DNA from: a virus
Length of the DNA: 64,000 nucleotides
Direction: 5' to 3' (one strand)
Virus record (IMG/VR): IMGVR_UViG_3300044701_003269
Location: 1-64,000 of that record
Positions 12,359 through 50,768 of this stretch are shown one piece after another (within the stretch, counting starts at the first letter, position 1; the number at the start of each line of letters is the position of its first letter). Both the position numbers and the translations under genes were made by a program. A model generated the notes under the pieces. The model was not told the DNA's origin and searched no databases. It saw only the letters and a program-made list of their open reading frames with translations.

Positions 12359-12440
12359 GGGTAGGTGTCCGAGTGGTTAATGGAGGCGGACTGTAAATCC
12401 GCTGGCTCTGCCTACGGGGGTTCAAATCCCTCCCTGCCCA
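12359..12440 (+). tRNA. tRNA-Tyr(GTA)
   Basis: The acceptor GGGTAGG pairs with CCTGCCC. The anticodon loop CTGTAAA gives GTA, and a long variable arm is present, as expected for bacterial tRNA-Tyr. Confidence 0.92.
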
Positions 12441-12442
12441 CC

Positions 12443-12471
12443 TTGACAATCAAATCCTTAACTGATATGAT
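12443..12471 (+). promoter_or_regulatory. Promoter inside an inverted repeat, before tRNA-Arg
   Basis: TTGACA and TATGAT are separated by 17 bases. GACAATCA (12445-12452) and TGATTGTC (12468-12475) are perfect inverted arms that overlap both hexamers. Confidence 0.8.
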
Positions 12472-12479
12472 TGTCCCAT

Positions 12480-12553
<74 letters not shown>

Positions 12554-12557
12554 CCTT

Positions 12558-12639
12558 GTCGTTGTGGCGGAATTGGTAGACGCGCTGGGTTTAGGTTCCA
12601 GTAGATTAATCTGTGAAGGTTCAAGTCCTTTCAACGACA
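12558..12639 (+). tRNA. tRNA-Leu(TAG)
   Basis: Acceptor GTCGTTG pairs with CAACGAC. The loop TTTAGGT gives TAG and a class II variable arm is present. Confidence 0.88.
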
Positions 12640-12640
12640 C

Positions 12641-12669
12641 TTGACAATCAAACTAAAATAGTTTATGAT
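12641..12669 (+). promoter_or_regulatory. Second inverted-repeat promoter, before tRNA-Gly
   Basis: TTGACA and TATGAT at 17-base spacing; the arms GACAATCA (12643-12650) and TGATTGTC (12666-12673) are identical to those at 12445 and 12468. Confidence 0.8.
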
Positions 12670-12678
12670 TGTCTCAAT

Positions 12679-12749
12679 GCGAAATTGGTGTAGTGGTAAC
12701 ATCCCATCCTTCCAAGTTGGTGTCACGGGTTCGAATCCCGTATTTCGCT
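12679..12749 (+). tRNA. tRNA-Gly(TCC)
   Basis: Acceptor GCGAAAT pairs with ATTTCGC; anticodon loop CTTCCAA gives TCC. One mismatch is visible in the anticodon stem. Confidence 0.88.
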
Positions 12750-12751
12750 CT

Positions 12752-12765
12752 GAACCTTAAGGTTC
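12752..12765 (+). other. 14-bp perfect palindrome between tRNAs
   Basis: GAACCTTAAGGTTC reads the same on both strands. It lies between tRNA-Gly and tRNA-Asn and may be a processing hairpin or a protein site. Confidence 0.5.
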
Positions 12766-12769
12766 TTAT

Positions 12770-12841
12770 TCCCCTGTGGCGCAGCGGTAGCGCAGTTGAC
12801 TGTTAATCAATGGGTCGCAAGTTCGAATCTTGCCGGGGGAG
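12770..12841 (+). tRNA. tRNA-Asn(GTT)
   Basis: Acceptor TCCCCTG pairs with CGGGGGA (one G-U). Anticodon loop CTGTTAA gives GTT. Confidence 0.92.
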
Positions 12842-12845
12842 CCTA

Positions 12846-12917
12846 GGGCGATTAGCGCAGTGGTAGCGCACCTCCTTTACACGGAGAGGGTCGGGGGTTC
12901 GAATCCCTCATCGCCCA
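12846..12917 (+). tRNA. tRNA-Val(TAC)
   Basis: Acceptor GGGCGAT pairs with ATCGCCC. Anticodon loop TTTACAC gives TAC, with one mismatch at the outer end of the anticodon stem. Confidence 0.9.
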
Positions 12918-12945
12918 CTTTCATAAATACTTACAAAAAAGTATA

Positions 12946-13380
12946 ATGGAAACACTATATAAGTTATTATCAGATACTCAAGCAAGTCTTTTTGTATTGT
13001 TTCAAAAGACTTGGATATATCATTGGAACGTAGTTGGTCCTAACTTTAAAGAGTTCCACGATTTATTTGGTGCTCATTATGAAGCAATGTTCGAACAGAT
13101 TGACCGTCTGACCGAGCATATGAGATATCTAAATATTAAACCAGTTCCTACTTTAACAAGAATTACTGAGGTATCTCACGTTGAAGAGGCAAATAGTTCT
13201 CTAGATGCTATGGGAATGGTGAATGACCTAATTAAGTGTCACGAAAAGATTATAGAACTTCTAACTCAAGTATCAGAAGAAGCTGAGAACCAGAAATCAA
13301 AAGGAACAATTAACCTTGTTGATGATTTAAATGAAGAACACGGCAAATTTATCTGGATGTTAAGGTCATTTACACAATGA
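12946..13380 (+). CDS. dps: Dps-family ferritin-like protein
   Basis: The 144-aa product matches Dps, which oxidises and stores iron and protects DNA from peroxide. The ferroxidase residues have the canonical spacing: His26, His38, Asp53 and Glu57 in YHWNVVGPNF...HDLF...EQIDRLTEHMR. The length is slightly short for the family. A CATAAATA late-type box at 12922-12929 precedes it. It sits within the tRNA cluster. Confidence 0.88.
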   Translation: METLYKLLSDTQASLFVLFQKTWIYHWNVVGPNFKEFHDLFGAHYEAMFEQIDRLTEHMRYLNIKPVPTLTRITEVSHVEEANSSLDAMGMVNDLIKCHEKIIELLTQVSEEAENQKSKGTINLVDDLNEEHGKFIWMLRSFTQ

Positions 13381-13395
13381 CAGGATTTATGAATT

Positions 13396-13641
13396 ATGAT
13401 TATAGTAAGATGCAGAGATTGCAACAGAGAATTAACTGGCACAAATAAAACTCAAGTTTGTGGTTGTCCTAATATGATGACCGTTAAAGGTGATAGTGTT
13501 TCGGCTGTTGACTTAAGTAGAGTAGTTATGGTAAACTCTACACAGAAAGAACAAAAGAACGTTCTAACTTCTCAAGATATTGCCTGGCAAGAGGCAAGAA
13601 GACAACGTAAAGTTCGTAGGTTAGACTTCGAAATTCGTTGA
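13396..13641 (+). CDS. Small zinc-ribbon-like protein, 81 aa
   Basis: Four cysteines near the N-terminus (CRDC and VCGC) form a likely zinc knuckle; the rest is basic and helical. A weak AGGA lies 10 bases before the ATG. Similar short proteins occur in cyanophages and cyanobacteria, from memory. Function unknown. Confidence 0.6.
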   Translation: MIIVRCRDCNRELTGTNKTQVCGCPNMMTVKGDSVSAVDLSRVVMVNSTQKEQKNVLTSQDIAWQEARRQRKVRRLDFEIR

Positions 13642-13651
13642 ACTTAATATT

Positions 13652-13736
13652 GGAAAGGTGGTCGAGTGGTTGAAGGCTCCAGTCTTGAAAACTGGCGATG
13701 TGCGAGCATCCGTGGGTTCGAATCCCACCCTTTCCG
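13652..13736 (+). tRNA. tRNA-Ser(TGA)
   Basis: Acceptor GGAAAGG pairs with CCTTTCC; anticodon stem-loop CCAGT-CTTGAAA-ACTGG gives TGA, with a long variable arm. Confidence 0.93.
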
Positions 13737-13807
13737 TTTCATATGATACCAATTTAATATTTTATTTGGTTTTCTGTATCGTAGTGTTACAAAACGCTGA
13801 CATTTTG

Positions 13808-13840
13808 TTGACTTTGAAATGTCTGTGATTAGTATATAAT
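13808..13840 (+). promoter_or_regulatory. Possible promoter with irregular spacing
   Basis: A TATAAT (13835-13840) lies 21 bases after TTGACT, or 15 after TTGAAA. This breaks the 17-base rule of the other promoters, so it is weaker. Confidence 0.35.
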
Positions 13841-13859
13841 AGTAATACGTTTCACAGAA

Positions 13860-14009
13860 ATGGACCAACATACTTACGAAAATTGGGTCCGTATTAAAGC
13901 AACTTTTGAGGAATCTGGTAATACTGATAATATGTTCTATAAGAGAGCAGTTCAGATAGTTAAAACCAGAATAGACCCTCTCGCAAAATTTTTGGGAGAT
14001 GAGAAGTGA
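13860..14009 (+). CDS. Small conserved cyanophage protein, 49 aa
   Basis: The product contains TDNMFYKRA, a pattern I recall from a short family in many cyanophages. Its TGA overlaps the next ATG (TGATG). Function unknown. It opens the chain of tiny overlapping genes up to 14770. Confidence 0.65.
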   Translation: MDQHTYENWVRIKATFEESGNTDNMFYKRAVQIVKTRIDPLAKFLGDEK

Positions 14010-14209
14010 TGGAACCACACGATGAATTTATTACAAGAACTGAAGTGCAGGAGATGATTGATGATGCCATACGAAGACATAATCGTAATGCTTCGATTAT
14101 TTCAATGTGTGTTGGTTGGGTTGTTCTTGCTCTTTTTGCTGAAGGTCTTCTTCGACTCATTGGAGTAATACCACCAGTATTCCCATGGCTAGACATTACC
14201 CTGAAATAA
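14009..14209 (+). CDS. Single-span membrane protein, 66 aa
   Basis: The ATG overlaps the upstream stop. Residues about 29-52 (SIISMCVGWVVLALFAEGLL) form one membrane segment after a charged N-terminus. It overlaps the next gene by 25 bases. Function unknown. Confidence 0.6.
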   Translation: MEPHDEFITRTEVQEMIDDAIRRHNRNASIISMCVGWVVLALFAEGLLRLIGVIPPVFPWLDITLK

Positions 14210-14364
14210 TAGGAATTGTTTTCCTGTTGGTTTTTGCTGCCACTATGTTCTATCAAGGAACGTGTATTATGCGAGGGCAGCGTGGATATTCTCTTCGTGA
14301 TTATCTCAAACAAGATAGTGAGAACATGCGTAAACGAATAGAAGAACTACTCAAGGATAAATGA
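14185..14364 (+). CDS. Single-span membrane protein, 59 aa
   Basis: One hydrophobic segment (about residues 8-25, IIGIVFLLVFAATMF) is followed by a charged helical tail. Its stop overlaps the next start as ATGA. Confidence 0.6.
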   Translation: MARHYPEIIGIVFLLVFAATMFYQGTCIMRGQRGYSLRDYLKQDSENMRKRIEELLKDK

Positions 14365-14477
14365 TTGTTCTAACAGAAGAGGATTTAAAAGAACTGCAGC
14401 AAAGAGTTCTGCAGTTAAAAATGAATGAACTATTTGAGGAACCATCTACATACGAGGATGAAGATGACGACGACTGA
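14361..14477 (+). CDS. Acidic micro-protein, 38 aa
   Basis: It starts within an ATGA overlap. The product is a charged helix ending in a run of Asp and Glu. The end overlaps the next gene by 14 bases in another frame. Confidence 0.5.
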   Translation: MIVLTEEDLKELQQRVLQLKMNELFEEPSTYEDEDDDD

Positions 14478-14586
14478 TTGGCTTATATTCATTGAGTTCT
14501 TCTCTCACATCTTATACTTGTTTATTGCTTTTATGTGTGGGATAATTATTGGGTATATTGTTGGTTTTAGAGACGGAGGAATGTGA
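14464..14586 (+). CDS. Membrane micro-protein, 40 aa
   Basis: Nearly the whole length is hydrophobic (ILYLFIAFMCGIIIGYIVGF) and ends in RDGGM. Its TGA overlaps the next ATG. Confidence 0.5.
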   Translation: MTTTDWLIFIEFFSHILYLFIAFMCGIIIGYIVGFRDGGM

Positions 14587-14657
14587 TGTTTAAAACACTC
14601 TTGTTTTCCACTCTCATCTATGCTATACTGATGTTGTCTTGGATTTGTTCTCAATGA
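14586..14657 (+). CDS. Membrane micro-peptide, 23 aa
   Basis: The 23-residue hydrophobic peptide is bounded by TGATG at its start and overlaps the next ATG at its end. It is supported only by this coupling pattern. Confidence 0.4.
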   Translation: MFKTLLFSTLIYAILMLSWICSQ

Positions 14658-14770
14658 TTTTCCACATTGTAGAAACACTGGCAGCAAATCAATTCTTTCT
14701 CTTTCTATGTGGGATGGGGTTGACAGTTATTCCTTTTGCTGGTATTATGTTTATACATAGAGAGAAGTAA
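14654..14770 (+). CDS. Membrane micro-protein, 38 aa
   Basis: One hydrophobic span (FFLFLCGMGLTVIPFAGIMF) and a short charged end. The stop is directly followed by tRNA-Pro at 14771. Confidence 0.5.
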   Translation: MIFHIVETLAANQFFLFLCGMGLTVIPFAGIMFIHREK

Positions 14771-14844
14771 CGGGGTGTAGCGCAGCTTGGTAGCGCATCT
14801 GCTTTGGGAGCAGAGGGTCGCAGGTTCGAATCCTGTCACCCCGA
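14771..14844 (+). tRNA. tRNA-Pro(TGG)
   Basis: Acceptor CGGGGTG pairs with CACCCCG; anticodon stem-loop TCTGC-TTTGGGA-GCAGA gives TGG. It begins at the base after the upstream stop codon. Confidence 0.93.
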
Positions 14845-14861
14845 CTCATAAAAATCACTTT

Positions 14862-15089
14862 ATGAAAATGCAAGAACTAGAAGAACTTCAATCCTTTACA
14901 GTCAAAGAGTTTCAATCTGATTTTGATAATCTAATGCAAAGAGTAGAAAACGGTGAATCATTTATCATACGAGACGGAAATAATAGCGCAGTGATAGTTC
15001 CTTACAACGAAACCATAAGGTATGCAATAGAACCAGTTGTGGATTCGGAACTCATACGAATACACAAAGACCACGAAGAAGGTTCTTGA
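14862..15089 (+). CDS. Phd/YefM-like antitoxin-domain protein (no toxin neighbour)
   Basis: The 75-aa product follows the Phd/YefM pattern: FTVKEFQSDFDNLMQRVENGES then FIIRDGNNSAVIVPY. Such proteins normally repress their own operon and neutralise a toxin. No toxin is next to it, so it could counter a host toxin or act as a plain regulator. ATG 14862 is used; a longer frame upstream would run through the tRNA. Confidence 0.65.
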   Translation: MKMQELEELQSFTVKEFQSDFDNLMQRVENGESFIIRDGNNSAVIVPYNETIRYAIEPVVDSELIRIHKDHEEGS

Positions 15090-15114
15090 CACAGGGTTCT
15101 GAGTCCCCTATAAT
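15086..15114 (+). promoter_or_regulatory. Promoter before tRNA-Ile (TTGACA-17-TATAAT)
   Basis: Both hexamers are perfect with 17-base spacing; the predicted start is about 15121, just before tRNA-Ile. Confidence 0.85.
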
Positions 15115-15128
15115 AGATTCAGGTTCAA

Positions 15129-15203
15129 GGGACTGTCGCCTATGGGTTAAGGCCCACTGCTTATAACGGTGTGAACTGAGTTCAAGTCTCAGCAGTCCTA
15201 CCA
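15129..15203 (+). tRNA. tRNA-Ile(TAT), CCA encoded
   Basis: Acceptor GGGACTG pairs with CAGTCCT (first pair G-U). The loop CTTATAA gives TAT, which reads AUA. CCA is encoded at 15201-15203, unlike the other tRNAs here. Confidence 0.85.
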
Positions 15204-15206
15204 AAT

Positions 15207-15279
15207 GCTCCTTTAGCAATCTGGTGAATGCAGCGAACTCATAATTCGCCTGAGGCGTGTTCGATCCACGCAAGGAGCA
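15207..15279 (+). tRNA. tRNA-Met(CAT) type
   Basis: Acceptor GCTCCTT pairs with AAGGAGC; anticodon stem-loop GCGAA-CTCATAA-TTCGC gives CAT; T stem GCGTG pairs with CACGC. It could be elongator Met or a lysidine-modified Ile tRNA. Confidence 0.82.
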
Positions 15280-15304
15280 TAGGACAGAATCAACACTGTC
15301 CATC

Positions 15305-30098: not shown

Positions 30099-30129
30099 AA
30101 TAAATATAATGCAGGGTTTGGATACTATA

Positions 30130-30828
30130 ATGCTCATAGATCTTCATAACTTCTTTAAATTTTACGACGATAAAAATCCAAAGCACGTTGCTGCGGTAGA
30201 ACAATTTGAAAAGGATTTGCTTCTGAAAGCCCAAGAGTTGATGCAGGATGATGCCAACTGGGTGAGAATTTTTAGAACCAAAGAAGATAAACCCCAAGCA
30301 AGTATTTTGCCCGTTCCTTTTTATCCACAAACAGATAATTATAGAGATGCAAATAGAACTTGCAACTCTTCTTCTTGTGCAATGTGCCTTGAGTATTTCA
30401 AACCTGGTACACTAAAAGGAGCTAAAGGCGACGACGCCTATGTACAAAAAGTTTTCCAAATCGGTGACACAACTGATCACTTGGTTCAGACCAAAGTTCT
30501 TGCGTCATACGGTATCAAATCCAGTTTTTCCTACAGCCTTTCTTTTGCTGATCTTGATAGAGAGCTTGCCGCTGGTAGACCTGTTGTTATTGGTATTCTT
30601 CATCGCGGTTCTCTATCTAACCCCACAGGAGGGCACATGGTAGTTGTAATTGGCAAAACCCCTTCAGGTGACTATGTTGTTAATGACCCATACGGCTCAT
30701 TGAATGATGGATACACTGGGTCAGTTAATAATGGTAAAGGTGCTGTATACAAGCGTTCTGATTTATCCCGTAGATGGTGTCCAAAAGGAAATGATGGTTG
30801 GGGAAGAATCTTTGATGTAAAAAAGTAG
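30130..30828 (+). CDS. C39-like cysteine peptidase, with a -1 frameshift into a lysozyme
   Basis: The 232-aa zero-frame product resembles Peptidase_C39_2: PVPFYPQTDN, then NSSSCAMCLEYF (candidate Cys), PTGGHMVVVIGK (His) and VVNDPYG. Such domains cut peptide bonds, here probably peptidoglycan stems. ATG 30130 fits a late start after AATAAATA better than ATG 30109. The gene ends GTA AAA AAG TAG: the heptamer A_AAA_AAG overlaps the stop region, and a pseudoknot follows, so part of the product should be a 392-aa fusion with the next gene. Confidence 0.85.
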   Translation: MLIDLHNFFKFYDDKNPKHVAAVEQFEKDLLLKAQELMQDDANWVRIFRTKEDKPQASILPVPFYPQTDNYRDANRTCNSSSCAMCLEYFKPGTLKGAKGDDAYVQKVFQIGDTTDHLVQTKVLASYGIKSSFSYSLSFADLDRELAAGRPVVIGILHRGSLSNPTGGHMVVVIGKTPSGDYVVNDPYGSLNDGYTGSVNNGKGAVYKRSDLSRRWCPKGNDGWGRIFDVKK

Positions 30829-30891
30829 AGTCAACACCACAATCCAAAATCCCTCAGTGTGGTGTTGACTTGATTAAAGAATTTGAGGGAT
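30819..30891 (+). promoter_or_regulatory. Programmed -1 frameshift signal (slippery site and H-type pseudoknot)
   Basis: Slippery heptamer A_AAA_AAG at 30819-30825 is in the correct frame. After a 5-base spacer, stem 1 pairs 30831-30841 with 30858-30868 (11 perfect pairs). Loop bases 30849-30856 (ATCCCTCA) pair with 30884-30891 (TGAGGGAT), giving stem 2 of 8 perfect pairs. The -1 frame starts at 30825 and runs into the lysozyme. Confidence 0.9.
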
Positions 30892-31307
30892 GCCATTTAA
30901 ATGCTTATCCCGATCCATTAACTGGTGGACTTCCTATTACTATTGGTTGGGGTTCTACAAAAGATTTCAATGGACAATACTTCAAACTTGGTAGAAAAAT
31001 AACTCAAGAGTATGCAGATAGACTATTAACATTTGACCTTGAGAATAGATTTCTTCCATCACTTCAAAGAATTCCTTATTGGGGAGAAATGTCAGATGGA
31101 CAAAGAGGCGCTCTGCTCAGCTTCGCTTATAATCTTGGTGCCGGTTTTTACGGTGGTTCTAACTTTAATACTATTACTAAATGCCTAAAAAATAAAGAAT
31201 GGTCTAAAGTCCCTGATGCTTTATATCTTTACCGCAATCCTGGAACTAACGTAGAGAAAGGACTTGCTCGCAGAAGAGTTGCAGAAGGTAAACTTTGGTC
31301 TTCATAA
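30825..31307 (+). CDS. GH24-type lysozyme domain, reached by -1 frameshift
   Basis: The frame has the T4-lysozyme pattern: IKEFEG (catalytic Glu), YPDP, TIGWG, then QRGALLSFAYNLG and GLARRRVAE. It is open from just after a stop at 30813 and lacks a normal start: the only candidate, TTG 30870, cuts close to the catalytic Glu and has no ribosome binding site. The region 30825-30869 encodes a plausible linker. Together with the frameshift signal this argues for a fused endolysin. Confidence 0.9.
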   Translation, partial: VESTPQSKIPQCGVDLIKEFEGCHLNAYPDPLTGGLPITIGWGSTKDFNGQYFKLGRKITQEYADRLLTFDLENRFLPSLQRIPYWGEMSDGQRGALLSFAYNLGAGFYGGSNFNTITKCLKNKEWSKVPDALYLYRNPGTNVEKGLARRRVAEGKLWSS

Positions 31308-31351
31308 TTTGTTACAATTGATAAATAGTATTATCCAATACTGCCGAATAA

Positions 31352-44055: not shown

Positions 44056-44652
44056 ATGATGCCTGTTGATGCTTATCGTTGTTATCTGTCTTTAAAGAAT
44101 CACTTTACTAAAGACAGTTATGATTATCACAAATACTGTGGTAAAAGTCGTGCTACCGTACAATCTTTCTACAAACGTAAAGATAGATTTTGGTTCGAGA
44201 AAGTATCAAGACAAAAGACAGATCAAGAAATTGTTGAATTTTTCGTATCAAATTTTGTTGCATGTACTGATCCCAGTAAATTGTGGATTGGTGAGATGAT
44301 GCGTGATGGTGAAGATAGATATGAATCTTGGAAAAAGAGAAACCAGTCTCTTTCTTATGTTTTCAAAGAAGAAACTCAAAGTTTATTTGAAGACCAAAAA
44401 GTAGATGAGGTTTTTGATTGTTCTAAAGGTCATCCACCCATTCTTAAAAATTTCCTGAGCGGGAAGATTAGCCCTGAAACTATGGTGATTTATGATAAGA
44501 TTTTCCTGTTCGGGAAAGATTTTGATAGGAAACTTCAAGACCCTGTGTGGGAAACCGTCAGTCGTAGACTTAAAAAATATTCTTCATTTCTAAATATTGA
44601 TGTACCACGTTATAAGAATATTTTGAAAGAAATTATTCTGAAGGGAAAATGA
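44056..44652 (+). CDS. 59: Helicase loader gp59-like
   Basis: The 198-aa protein starts MMPVDAYRCYLSLKNHF and continues helical and basic, as in T4 gp59, which loads the gp41 helicase at forks. It lies directly before the DUF1825 gene and gp32. Confidence 0.82.
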   Translation: MMPVDAYRCYLSLKNHFTKDSYDYHKYCGKSRATVQSFYKRKDRFWFEKVSRQKTDQEIVEFFVSNFVACTDPSKLWIGEMMRDGEDRYESWKKRNQSLSYVFKEETQSLFEDQKVDEVFDCSKGHPPILKNFLSGKISPETMVIYDKIFLFGKDFDRKLQDPVWETVSRRLKKYSSFLNIDVPRYKNILKEIILKGK

Positions 44653-44993
44653 GTTTCTTTAATTCTGAAGTTGTCCGTGCAGAGATGACTGAAATCAGTG
44701 AACTACAGGAAGAGGTTTATCAAAACGTCTTCAAGTTTCCTTCAATGTCAAAGGAAGAAAAACTACATCATGTAAATATTCTAGAAAAACTTCTTGATAA
44801 ACAAAAAGTTCTTTATACTCGTTTGAGTCTATCTGATGACCCAGAAGCGATTCAAATGAAAGAACGTATTACAGAGTCTGCATCAATGATGGGCCTTCCT
44901 CCCAACGTTGATATGAATGTCATCTTTAACAATATGTCTCAGATGCTAGATGTCATGAAGCAGCAGATTGACAAGACAGGTTCCGACCTGTAG
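44649..44993 (+). CDS. DUF1825-like protein
   Basis: The 114-aa product begins MSFFNSEVVRAEM and follows the pattern of DUF1825, a cyanobacterial family of unknown function. Helical; ATGA overlap with gp59. Confidence 0.75.
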   Translation: MSFFNSEVVRAEMTEISELQEEVYQNVFKFPSMSKEEKLHHVNILEKLLDKQKVLYTRLSLSDDPEAIQMKERITESASMMGLPPNVDMNVIFNNMSQMLDVMKQQIDKTGSDL

Positions 44994-49832: not shown

Positions 49833-49869
49833 TTGATAAATAATCACACTGAAACTTCTATAGGACATT

Positions 49870-50589
49870 ATGCCTTTACCAAAGATTTCTACACCAACAT
49901 ATGAGTTGGAATTGCCTTCTACCGGACAAAAAGTAACTTACAGACCATTTCTAGTAAGAGAAGAGAAACTATTAGTTCTTGCACTAGAATCAGAAGATAC
50001 AAAACAGATTACCTCAGCGATTAAGAGTGTAATTAAGAACTGTATTAATACAAAAGGTATCAAGGTCGAATCACTTCCGACATTTGATATCGAATATCTT
50101 TTCTTAAACATTCGCGGCAAGTCTGTTGGGGAAGAGATTGAAGTTAATGTCATCTGCCCTGATGATGAGGAAACTTATGTTCCAGTAACTCTCAATATTG
50201 ATGATATTAAAGTTCAAAAAGATGAGAACCACAGCAATAAAATTCAAGTAGATGATAGTATTGTGATGGAAATGAAGTATCCTTCACTTGAGGAGTTTAT
50301 TAGAAATAACTTTGACTTTAGTGAAGATACTACAATGGAGCAGTCTTTTGAATTGATTGCTTCTTGTGTTGATAAAATTTACACAGAAGAAGAAGTATGG
50401 TCTGCTTCTGATGTTACCAAAAAGGAACTAATGGAGTTCCTAGATCAAATGAACTCAATTCAATTTAAGCAGATTGAGAAGTTCTTTGAGACAATGCCTA
50501 AGCTTTCTCATACAGTTGAAGTTACAAATCCAAATACAAAAGTGAAGAGCGAAGTTGTTCTTGAGGGTCTTTCAAGTTTTTTCGCATAG
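49870..50589 (+). CDS. 26: Baseplate hub protein gp26, possible -1 frameshift at its end
   Basis: The 239-aa product follows gp26: LELPSTGQKVTYRPFLVREEKLLVLALES near the start and a helical C-terminus. GATAAATA (49835-49842) precedes it. The end reads AGT TTT TTC GCA TAG: the heptamer T_TTT_TTC is in frame, and the -1 frame runs into the next gene. Confidence 0.85.
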   Translation: MPLPKISTPTYELELPSTGQKVTYRPFLVREEKLLVLALESEDTKQITSAIKSVIKNCINTKGIKVESLPTFDIEYLFLNIRGKSVGEEIEVNVICPDDEETYVPVTLNIDDIKVQKDENHSNKIQVDDSIVMEMKYPSLEEFIRNNFDFSEDTTMEQSFELIASCVDKIYTEEEVWSASDVTKKELMEFLDQMNSIQFKQIEKFFETMPKLSHTVEVTNPNTKVKSEVVLEGLSSFFA

Positions 50590-50607
50590 CAATGGTCCAT
50601 ATGGACC
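50577..50607 (+). promoter_or_regulatory. Candidate -1 frameshift site between gp26 and the next gene
   Basis: Slippery T_TTT_TTC (50577-50583) is followed after 10 bases by a hairpin GGTCC-ATAT-GGACC (50594-50607). The -1 frame has no stop and joins the 50592 reading frame. Reinitiation at ATG 50592 is the alternative. Confidence 0.5.
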
Positions 50608-50768
50608 TTGAAAATTATTATAAACTCAACTTTGCTTTGATGCAGTATCATAAATATTCATTATGGGAAATTGAAGGATTGATACCCTGGGAAAGGGATG
50701 TTTATGTTGCAATGTTAAAGAATTATTTGGAAGAAGAAAAAGCAAAGCAGCAGCAAAATGGGACCTGA
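50592..50768 (+). CDS. Small baseplate-hub-assembly-like protein, 58 aa
   Basis: The product (LENYYKLNFALMQYHKYSLWEIE) resembles a short gp51-like protein placed after gp26 in cyanophages, from memory. It may be made alone or as a -1 frameshift extension of gp26, as with tail chaperone G/GT pairs in other phages. Confidence 0.55.
   Translation: MVHMDLENYYKLNFALMQYHKYSLWEIEGLIPWERDVYVAMLKNYLEEEKAKQQQNGT

Follow-up and report, generated by a model that had tools for sequence, protein, structure and literature searches.

Comparison of the sequence with its relatives indicates that a programmed -1 ribosomal frameshift very probably joins a peptidase to a lysozyme in the window, the 64,000-nucleotide stretch of DNA that was analyzed and that is part of a 174-kb virus record resembling Synechococcus myoviruses. 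Across a large group of related viruses that infect marine and freshwater Synechococcus, the wall-cutting lysozyme lacks its own start and is almost certainly made only via the -1 slip; this conserved arrangement is unannotated even in the model phage S-PM2. A sequence-only reading of the window had first proposed the frameshift, and the comparison upheld it by establishing the signal and its conservation, the compensatory changes in the stem downstream of it (stem 1), the absence of an alternative start and the existence of relatives with both domains in one frame. Slippage itself, the ratio of the products and a contribution of a pseudoknot are what we infer.

Overlapping peptidase and lysozyme frames

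The following features were assigned at the locus:

30130..30828, + strand: peptidase open reading frame (ORF; 232 aa, frame 0), from ATG 30130 to the stop at 30826-30828, ending ...RIFDVKK-stop
30819..30825, + strand: slippery heptamer A_AAA_AAG in frame 0, read directly and found in 52 of 66 non-redundant junctions
30826..30828, + strand: frame-0 stop codon TAG, abutting the heptamer, read directly
30825..31307, + strand: -1 frame extension of 160 aa, consisting of the linker VESTPQSKIPQC and a GH24 phage lysozyme (translation, profile match)
30130..31307, + strand: predicted frameshift product of 392 aa, HNFF-peptidase-linker-lysozyme, with the spanning peptide ...IFDVKKVESTPQSK...

Direct reading of the window gives GTA AAA AAG TAG at 30817-30828, and thus the heptamer lies in the peptidase frame and is followed by TAG, as had been claimed; the codons upstream of it encode a conserved GWGR. 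The -1 frame is also the lysozyme frame and lacks a good start, again as proposed: it is open for 160 codons from 30825 to the TAA at 31305-31307, and a scan of the window for ATG, GTG and TTG between its opening and the domain returned only TTG 30870, which sits within the 3' arm of stem 1 and within the first lysozyme helix. Initiation at this TTG or at other internal starts was rejected, such starts being unconserved and inside the stem and the domain, and stop codon readthrough was rejected as a route to the fusion because the lysozyme is in the wrong frame. The T4-like late-promoter core ATAAATA occurs on the + strand at 30100, before the peptidase, and at 31321, after the lysozyme; the motif is not enriched in the window (23 occurrences against 21.8 expected).

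The frame-0 ORF comprises an N-terminal HNFF domain of about 50 aa and a C39-like cysteine peptidase (Pfam PF13529 Peptidase_C39_2, E 7e-14, 53 bits against a cut-off of 24), with a weak fold match to the C39-like structure 3erv. The lysozyme part matches GH24 Phage_lysozyme (PF00959, E 8e-21, 75 bits against a cut-off of 22.3) over positions 1-125 of 125, matches PDB 9kbq by sequence and by fold, and carries the catalytic-type FEG glutamate. While the peptidase ORF matches positions 1-235 of 405 in PHROG 3617, both ORFs jointly match this 405-aa fused family. Since most versions of the gene supply the lysozyme joined to HNFF, HNFF may be a targeting domain. The domains suggest a wall-degrading role, perhaps as an endolysin or as a virion enzyme; no link of the peptidase-lysozyme to a holin was found. 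A tail assembly chaperone G/GT was rejected as an identity for the locus because its domains are a peptidase and a lysozyme and its flanking genes are peroxiredoxin and psbA.

In the proposed mechanism, ribosomes translating the peptidase would meet A_AAA_AAG with tRNA-Lys(UUU) in both the P and the A site, and a stable hairpin 2-5 nt downstream, here probably an H-type pseudoknot, would make some of them slip back by one base. The slipped ribosomes would bypass the TAG, continue through ...V K K V E S T P Q S K... to the lysozyme and yield the 392-aa HNFF-peptidase-lysozyme, while the unslipped ones would release the 232-aa HNFF-peptidase. Earlier, the phage had been thought to make a peptidase and, in a fixed ratio, a peptidase-lysozyme endolysin of about 392 aa; the 232-aa ORF and the predicted 392-aa fusion have gained comparative support, and the fixed ratio and the endolysin function may be correct.

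Conservation of the heptamer among relatives

Relatives were collected by blastn, which gave 44 Synechococcus phage records, and by scans of IMG/VR, which gave some 470 loci; reduction of the IMG/VR loci and isolates left 221 distinct lysozyme junctions. The overlap class required an upstream ORF of 80 aa or more; 115 junctions overlap in the -1-joined frame and 2 in the +1 frame, 23 are in-frame fusions and 81 have no overlap. The conservation in related cyanophages that the sequence-only reading had put forward as a check was found: an in-frame heptamer stands at the upstream stop in 81 of the 115 -1 overlaps (66 non-redundant), a number that equals that of the no-overlap junctions by coincidence, and seven further heptamer junctions were recognized by hand. 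Where a -1 overlap lacks a heptamer, the arrangement is a different one, with an ATGA start or a separate gene that has its own start.

The 66 non-redundant junctions, which were chosen for possessing a heptamer, comprise 52 with A_AAA_AAG (directly before the stop in 42, one codon before it in 10), 8 with G_GGA_AAG, 4 with C_CCA_AAG and 2 with T_TTT_TTT. The stop following A_AAA_AAG(-7) is TAG in 34 of the 42 junctions, TAA in 6 and TGA in 2. All 52 A-type junctions, a set selected by the heptamer, read GCA, GTA, ACA or GAA and then AAA AAG, against a background usage of 29-40% for A-ending Ala, Val and Thr codons and an AAA:AAG ratio of 67:33. The in-frame pattern V_VVA_AAG occurs a single time among 13,972 codon positions of the upstream ORF bodies and not at all in 9,471 lysozyme codons, compared with 64 of the 66 non-redundant junctions. 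In an independent ranking of 64 heptamers measured in E. coli, A_AAA_AAG, G_GGA_AAG and C_CCA_AAG took the top three places for -1 efficiency, and bacterial tRNA-Lys(UUU) is described as shifty, above all on AAG (PMC4066793). Synechococcus WH7803, the host of S-PM2, has one tRNA-Lys, with the anticodon UUU, among 43 tRNAs, and no Lys tRNA is present among the 10 phage tRNA genes of the window (cluster 12359-15280, + strand). The features expected of a bacterial -1 frameshift are found together at these junctions, namely X_XXY_YYZ in frame 0 within the overlap, a compensated downstream structure and synonymous-site conservation of the heptamer.

It is conceivable that a separate lysozyme is made by termination-reinitiation or by internal initiation near the peptidase stop, with no fusion. 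ATGA or GTGA overlaps predominate among relatives of the A_AAA_AAG(-10) clade, others have ATGA without a heptamer or separate genes, most G_GGA_AAG junctions contain in-frame ATGs 12-15 nt upstream of the domain, and the window itself offers TTG 30870. However, 29 of the 42 A_AAA_AAG(-7) junctions contain neither ATG nor GTG in the open stretch, and TTG 30870, which is replaced by TTA, CTT or CTA elsewhere, lies in a 14-bp stem, where a start would cut off the beginning of the domain. Moreover, reinitiation leaves the invariant third positions of the heptamer and the natural in-frame fusions unexplained, and we consider it improbable. Relatives with a normal start and ribosome-binding site for the lysozyme, which the frameshift proposal had named as its refutation, do exist (DSL-LC02/03 and about 90 IMG/VR junctions). 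Since the lysozyme there is a separate protein with its own N-terminal HNFF domain, as is usual for the separate-gene versions, they represent another architecture and do not refute the frameshift.

A sequencing error in what is really one ORF, or a decaying or dead lysozyme gene, would find some backing in relatives that carry a single additional A, namely L284 and four loci sharing its junction. The same frame relation is nevertheless seen in 81 distinct junctions, on many contigs, and in independent isolates, and no stop interrupts the lysozyme frame within the domain at these junctions, so that this explanation is in effect refuted and retains a negligible probability.

Structures downstream of the heptamer

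The programmed frameshift would be stimulated by RNA structure, for which the window contains the following elements:

30828..30841, + strand: stem 1, 5' arm (14 pairs, the inner 11 from 30831-30841; folding, covariation)
30858..30871, + strand: stem 1, 3' arm (folding, covariation)
30849..30856, + strand: candidate stem 2, 5' strand, in the loop of stem 1 (ATCCCTCA)
30884..30891, + strand: candidate stem 2, 3' strand, in the conserved EFEG codons (TGAGGGAT)

The perfect pairing of 30831-30841 with 30858-30868 was present as claimed, but the stem is 14 pairs long rather than 11, because it extends outward by 30830-30869, 30829-30870 and the G-U pair 30828-30871 to a total of 13 Watson-Crick pairs and one G-U. 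The fold has an MFE of -21.9 kcal/mol (z -3.4; 1 of 200 shuffles equally good), and no plausible match was found in Rfam. A stem is present 3' of the heptamer in all main types, with a spacer of 2-5 nt, and the stem sequences form unrelated groups (CAACACCACA, CGCCAACTAA, AGTTCTACTCC, GGGGCAGC, GCGGTAGCAG and GTAGAACC). The 5' and 3' arms of the same phage pair at a mean of -16.4 kcal/mol, compared with -9.5 (sd 0.48) when arms are swapped between phages, and none of 5000 permutations was as low as the pairing of own arms. Compensatory changes, which had been suggested as a check for both stems, were found on both sides of 5, 3 and 4 pairs of stem 1 in three groups, where slid controls left only 10-50% of cells paired; since the shuffle control was not exceeded in the second group, the weight of the covariation rests on the first and third groups. 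No such changes were seen in any of the 8 pairs of stem 2.

These data also bear on slippage of RNA polymerase on the A run, by which transcriptional realignment would produce a fused mRNA. The run is homopolymeric, with 6 A in the A type and 8 T in the S-CAM7 type, but six A are short for RNA polymerase slippage. G_GGA_AAG and C_CCA_AAG, which are not expected to permit it, are found at the same position, each with a stem of its own, and the conservation of the stem by pairing also argues against this explanation, which is highly improbable.

As noted from the sequence alone, 30849-30856 (ATCCCTCA) and 30884-30891 (TGAGGGAT) are exactly complementary in antiparallel orientation, giving 8 perfect pairs. 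In the window's group, 92.9% of stem 2 cells are paired across 21 distinct sequences, which show one-sided G-U changes only. The duplex of loop and flank reaches -9 to -14 kcal/mol (z -2 to -4) in about a dozen non-redundant relatives of the window's clade, whereas stem 2 is absent in most other clades, where long plain hairpins serve. The H-type pseudoknot, originally stated without such limits, is therefore convincing in the window's own clade and was rejected as a family-wide feature, a small weak one in the ATGA clade being the exception. For this phage, it is likely.

Variant junctions, one-frame fusions and known systems

Several relatives encode the fused protein in one frame. L284 (GTAAAAAAAGTAG) is such a fusion when compared with its frameshift-type relative L304 (GTAAAAAAGTAG), and the junction that L284 shares with four other loci reads GATGTAAAAAAAGTAGAAAACTCTACTCC, as against GATGTAAAAAAGTAGAAAACTCTACTCC in L304 and L166. 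One extra A is the only change to the signal in the L284-type loci and gives the same fusion, ...FDVKKVENSTPSG..., in one frame; the L284 protein of 395 aa has the architecture of the predicted 392-aa product. Further in-frame fusions occur in L163, L275 and the ACG-2014f clade, making at least four lineages overall, and the fused label changes at least 4 times on a lysozyme tree of 145 columns that is poorly resolved and unrooted and leaves the direction open. This recurrence speaks for a useful fused protein and for the frameshift product being what selection sees. The fused peptidase-lysozyme of PHROG 3617 and ACG-2014f (405 aa) shares the architecture of the window's product but, unlike it, is encoded in one frame with no frameshift. 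An AlphaFold model of a natural fusion was of moderate quality (pLDDT 70). A fusion in reversed order, with the lysozyme first and the HNFF-peptidase second, was observed in L004 589-1770 (S-CREM1), where it begins by an ATGA overlap with nrdB, and in L182.

The signal itself also varies. In the S-SRM01-containing clade, which is nested among A-type sequences, A_AAA_AAG is followed by one codon and then by a TGA overlapping ATG or GTG, and the hairpin is weak (mean z -0.5); within this clade, L129 has lost the heptamer. Given the overlapping start and the weak fold, reinitiation may share the work of slippage or replace it in this derived clade. Among isolates, the signal is present in S-PM2 (A_AAA_AAG) and in S-CAM7 (T_TTT_TTT, two isolates checked); at the S-PM2 junction, frame 0 ends in ...LFDAKK and the -1 frame carries on with VTSSTSR.... 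The putative lysin is annotated in truncated form in both, from 270 nt past the peptidase stop in S-PM2 and from about 240-290 nt past it in S-CAM7, in both cases beyond the FEG glutamate, as expected if the beginning of the domain has no usable start.

In the G_GGA_AAG type the upstream ORF consists of the HNFF domain only and ends in CPHCGKPLGK. This second frameshift module, with a short product bearing a CxxC tail, runs from the short HNFF ORF through the heptamer, the stop and a GC-rich hairpin to the lysozyme in the -1 frame; it was seen at L198, L291, L415-L417, L465, L474, L288 and L306 (and at L194, L286, L419, L277, L451 and L297).

With at least four heptamers, stems of unrelated sequence and upstream ORFs of two kinds (HNFF-peptidase, or HNFF ending in CxxCGKPLGK), we lean towards the view that frameshifting serves Synechococcus myoviruses as a recurrent and interchangeable means of joining one lysozyme to different partners. 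Several times over, signals would have been installed, given up for an in-frame fusion or exchanged for ATGA starts, so that selection would hold the ratio of short to long enzyme and not any one signal.

The best-known cases of -1 frameshifting in phages are tail and capsid genes. The frameshift of the tail-assembly chaperones G/GT was reportedly described by Xu, Hendrix and Duda in 2004; these and other structural-gene frameshifts of dsDNA phages are likewise conserved -1 events with a short and a long product, whereas the window has a catalytic enzyme fusion instead of a tail gene, and different upstream ORFs are joined to one lysozyme according to lineage. E. coli dnaX has the same A_AAA_AAG, a downstream stem and, as in the tested host, a single tRNA-Lys(UUU), but its shift shortens the protein, while that of the window would add a 160-aa enzyme domain and, in the window's clade, likely involves a pseudoknot. 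IS3-family orfA/orfB (IS911 with A_AAA_AAG; IS3 with a pseudoknot) also have two overlapping ORFs, -1 slippage and a hairpin or pseudoknot, but make a transposase, in contrast to a phage gene with two wall-lytic domains. A lactococcal phage lysin with two overlapping genes, attributed to Shearman 1994 in PMC10885494 and a known frameshift case according to PRFect's authors, may be a precedent; its overlapping ORFs resemble those described here, in a different host. Open PubMed Central papers contained no frameshifted endolysin beyond this cited one, and absence there is no proof.

If the signal is conserved in a peptidoglycan-degrading enzyme, recoding would act as dosage control of a wall hydrolase. 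The gene models of S-PM2, S-CAM7 and many environmental cyanophages would be corrected, and the natural pairs with 6 A and 7 A offer an opportunity to test the value of the ratio.

Three other sites on the + strand of the window were noted. At 49864-50768, a baseplate-hub gene (PHROG 150) has U_UUU_UUC at 50577, at its end, and a 61-aa -1 extension that matches PHROG 634, 'baseplate hub assembly catalyst', and has its own ATG nearby; the junction is a candidate second frameshift or a plain overlap. At 44643-44655, AAG GGA AAA TGA contains G_GGA_AAA where a 198-codon frame meets a 114-aa ORF (N-terminus MSFFNSEV) in an ATGA overlap, which is probably ordinary coupling. Finally, a 78-codon frame has an in-frame A_AAA_AAC at 336, 18 nt ahead of its stop, and is continued in -1 for 475 codons, which may merely be the frame of the real gene.
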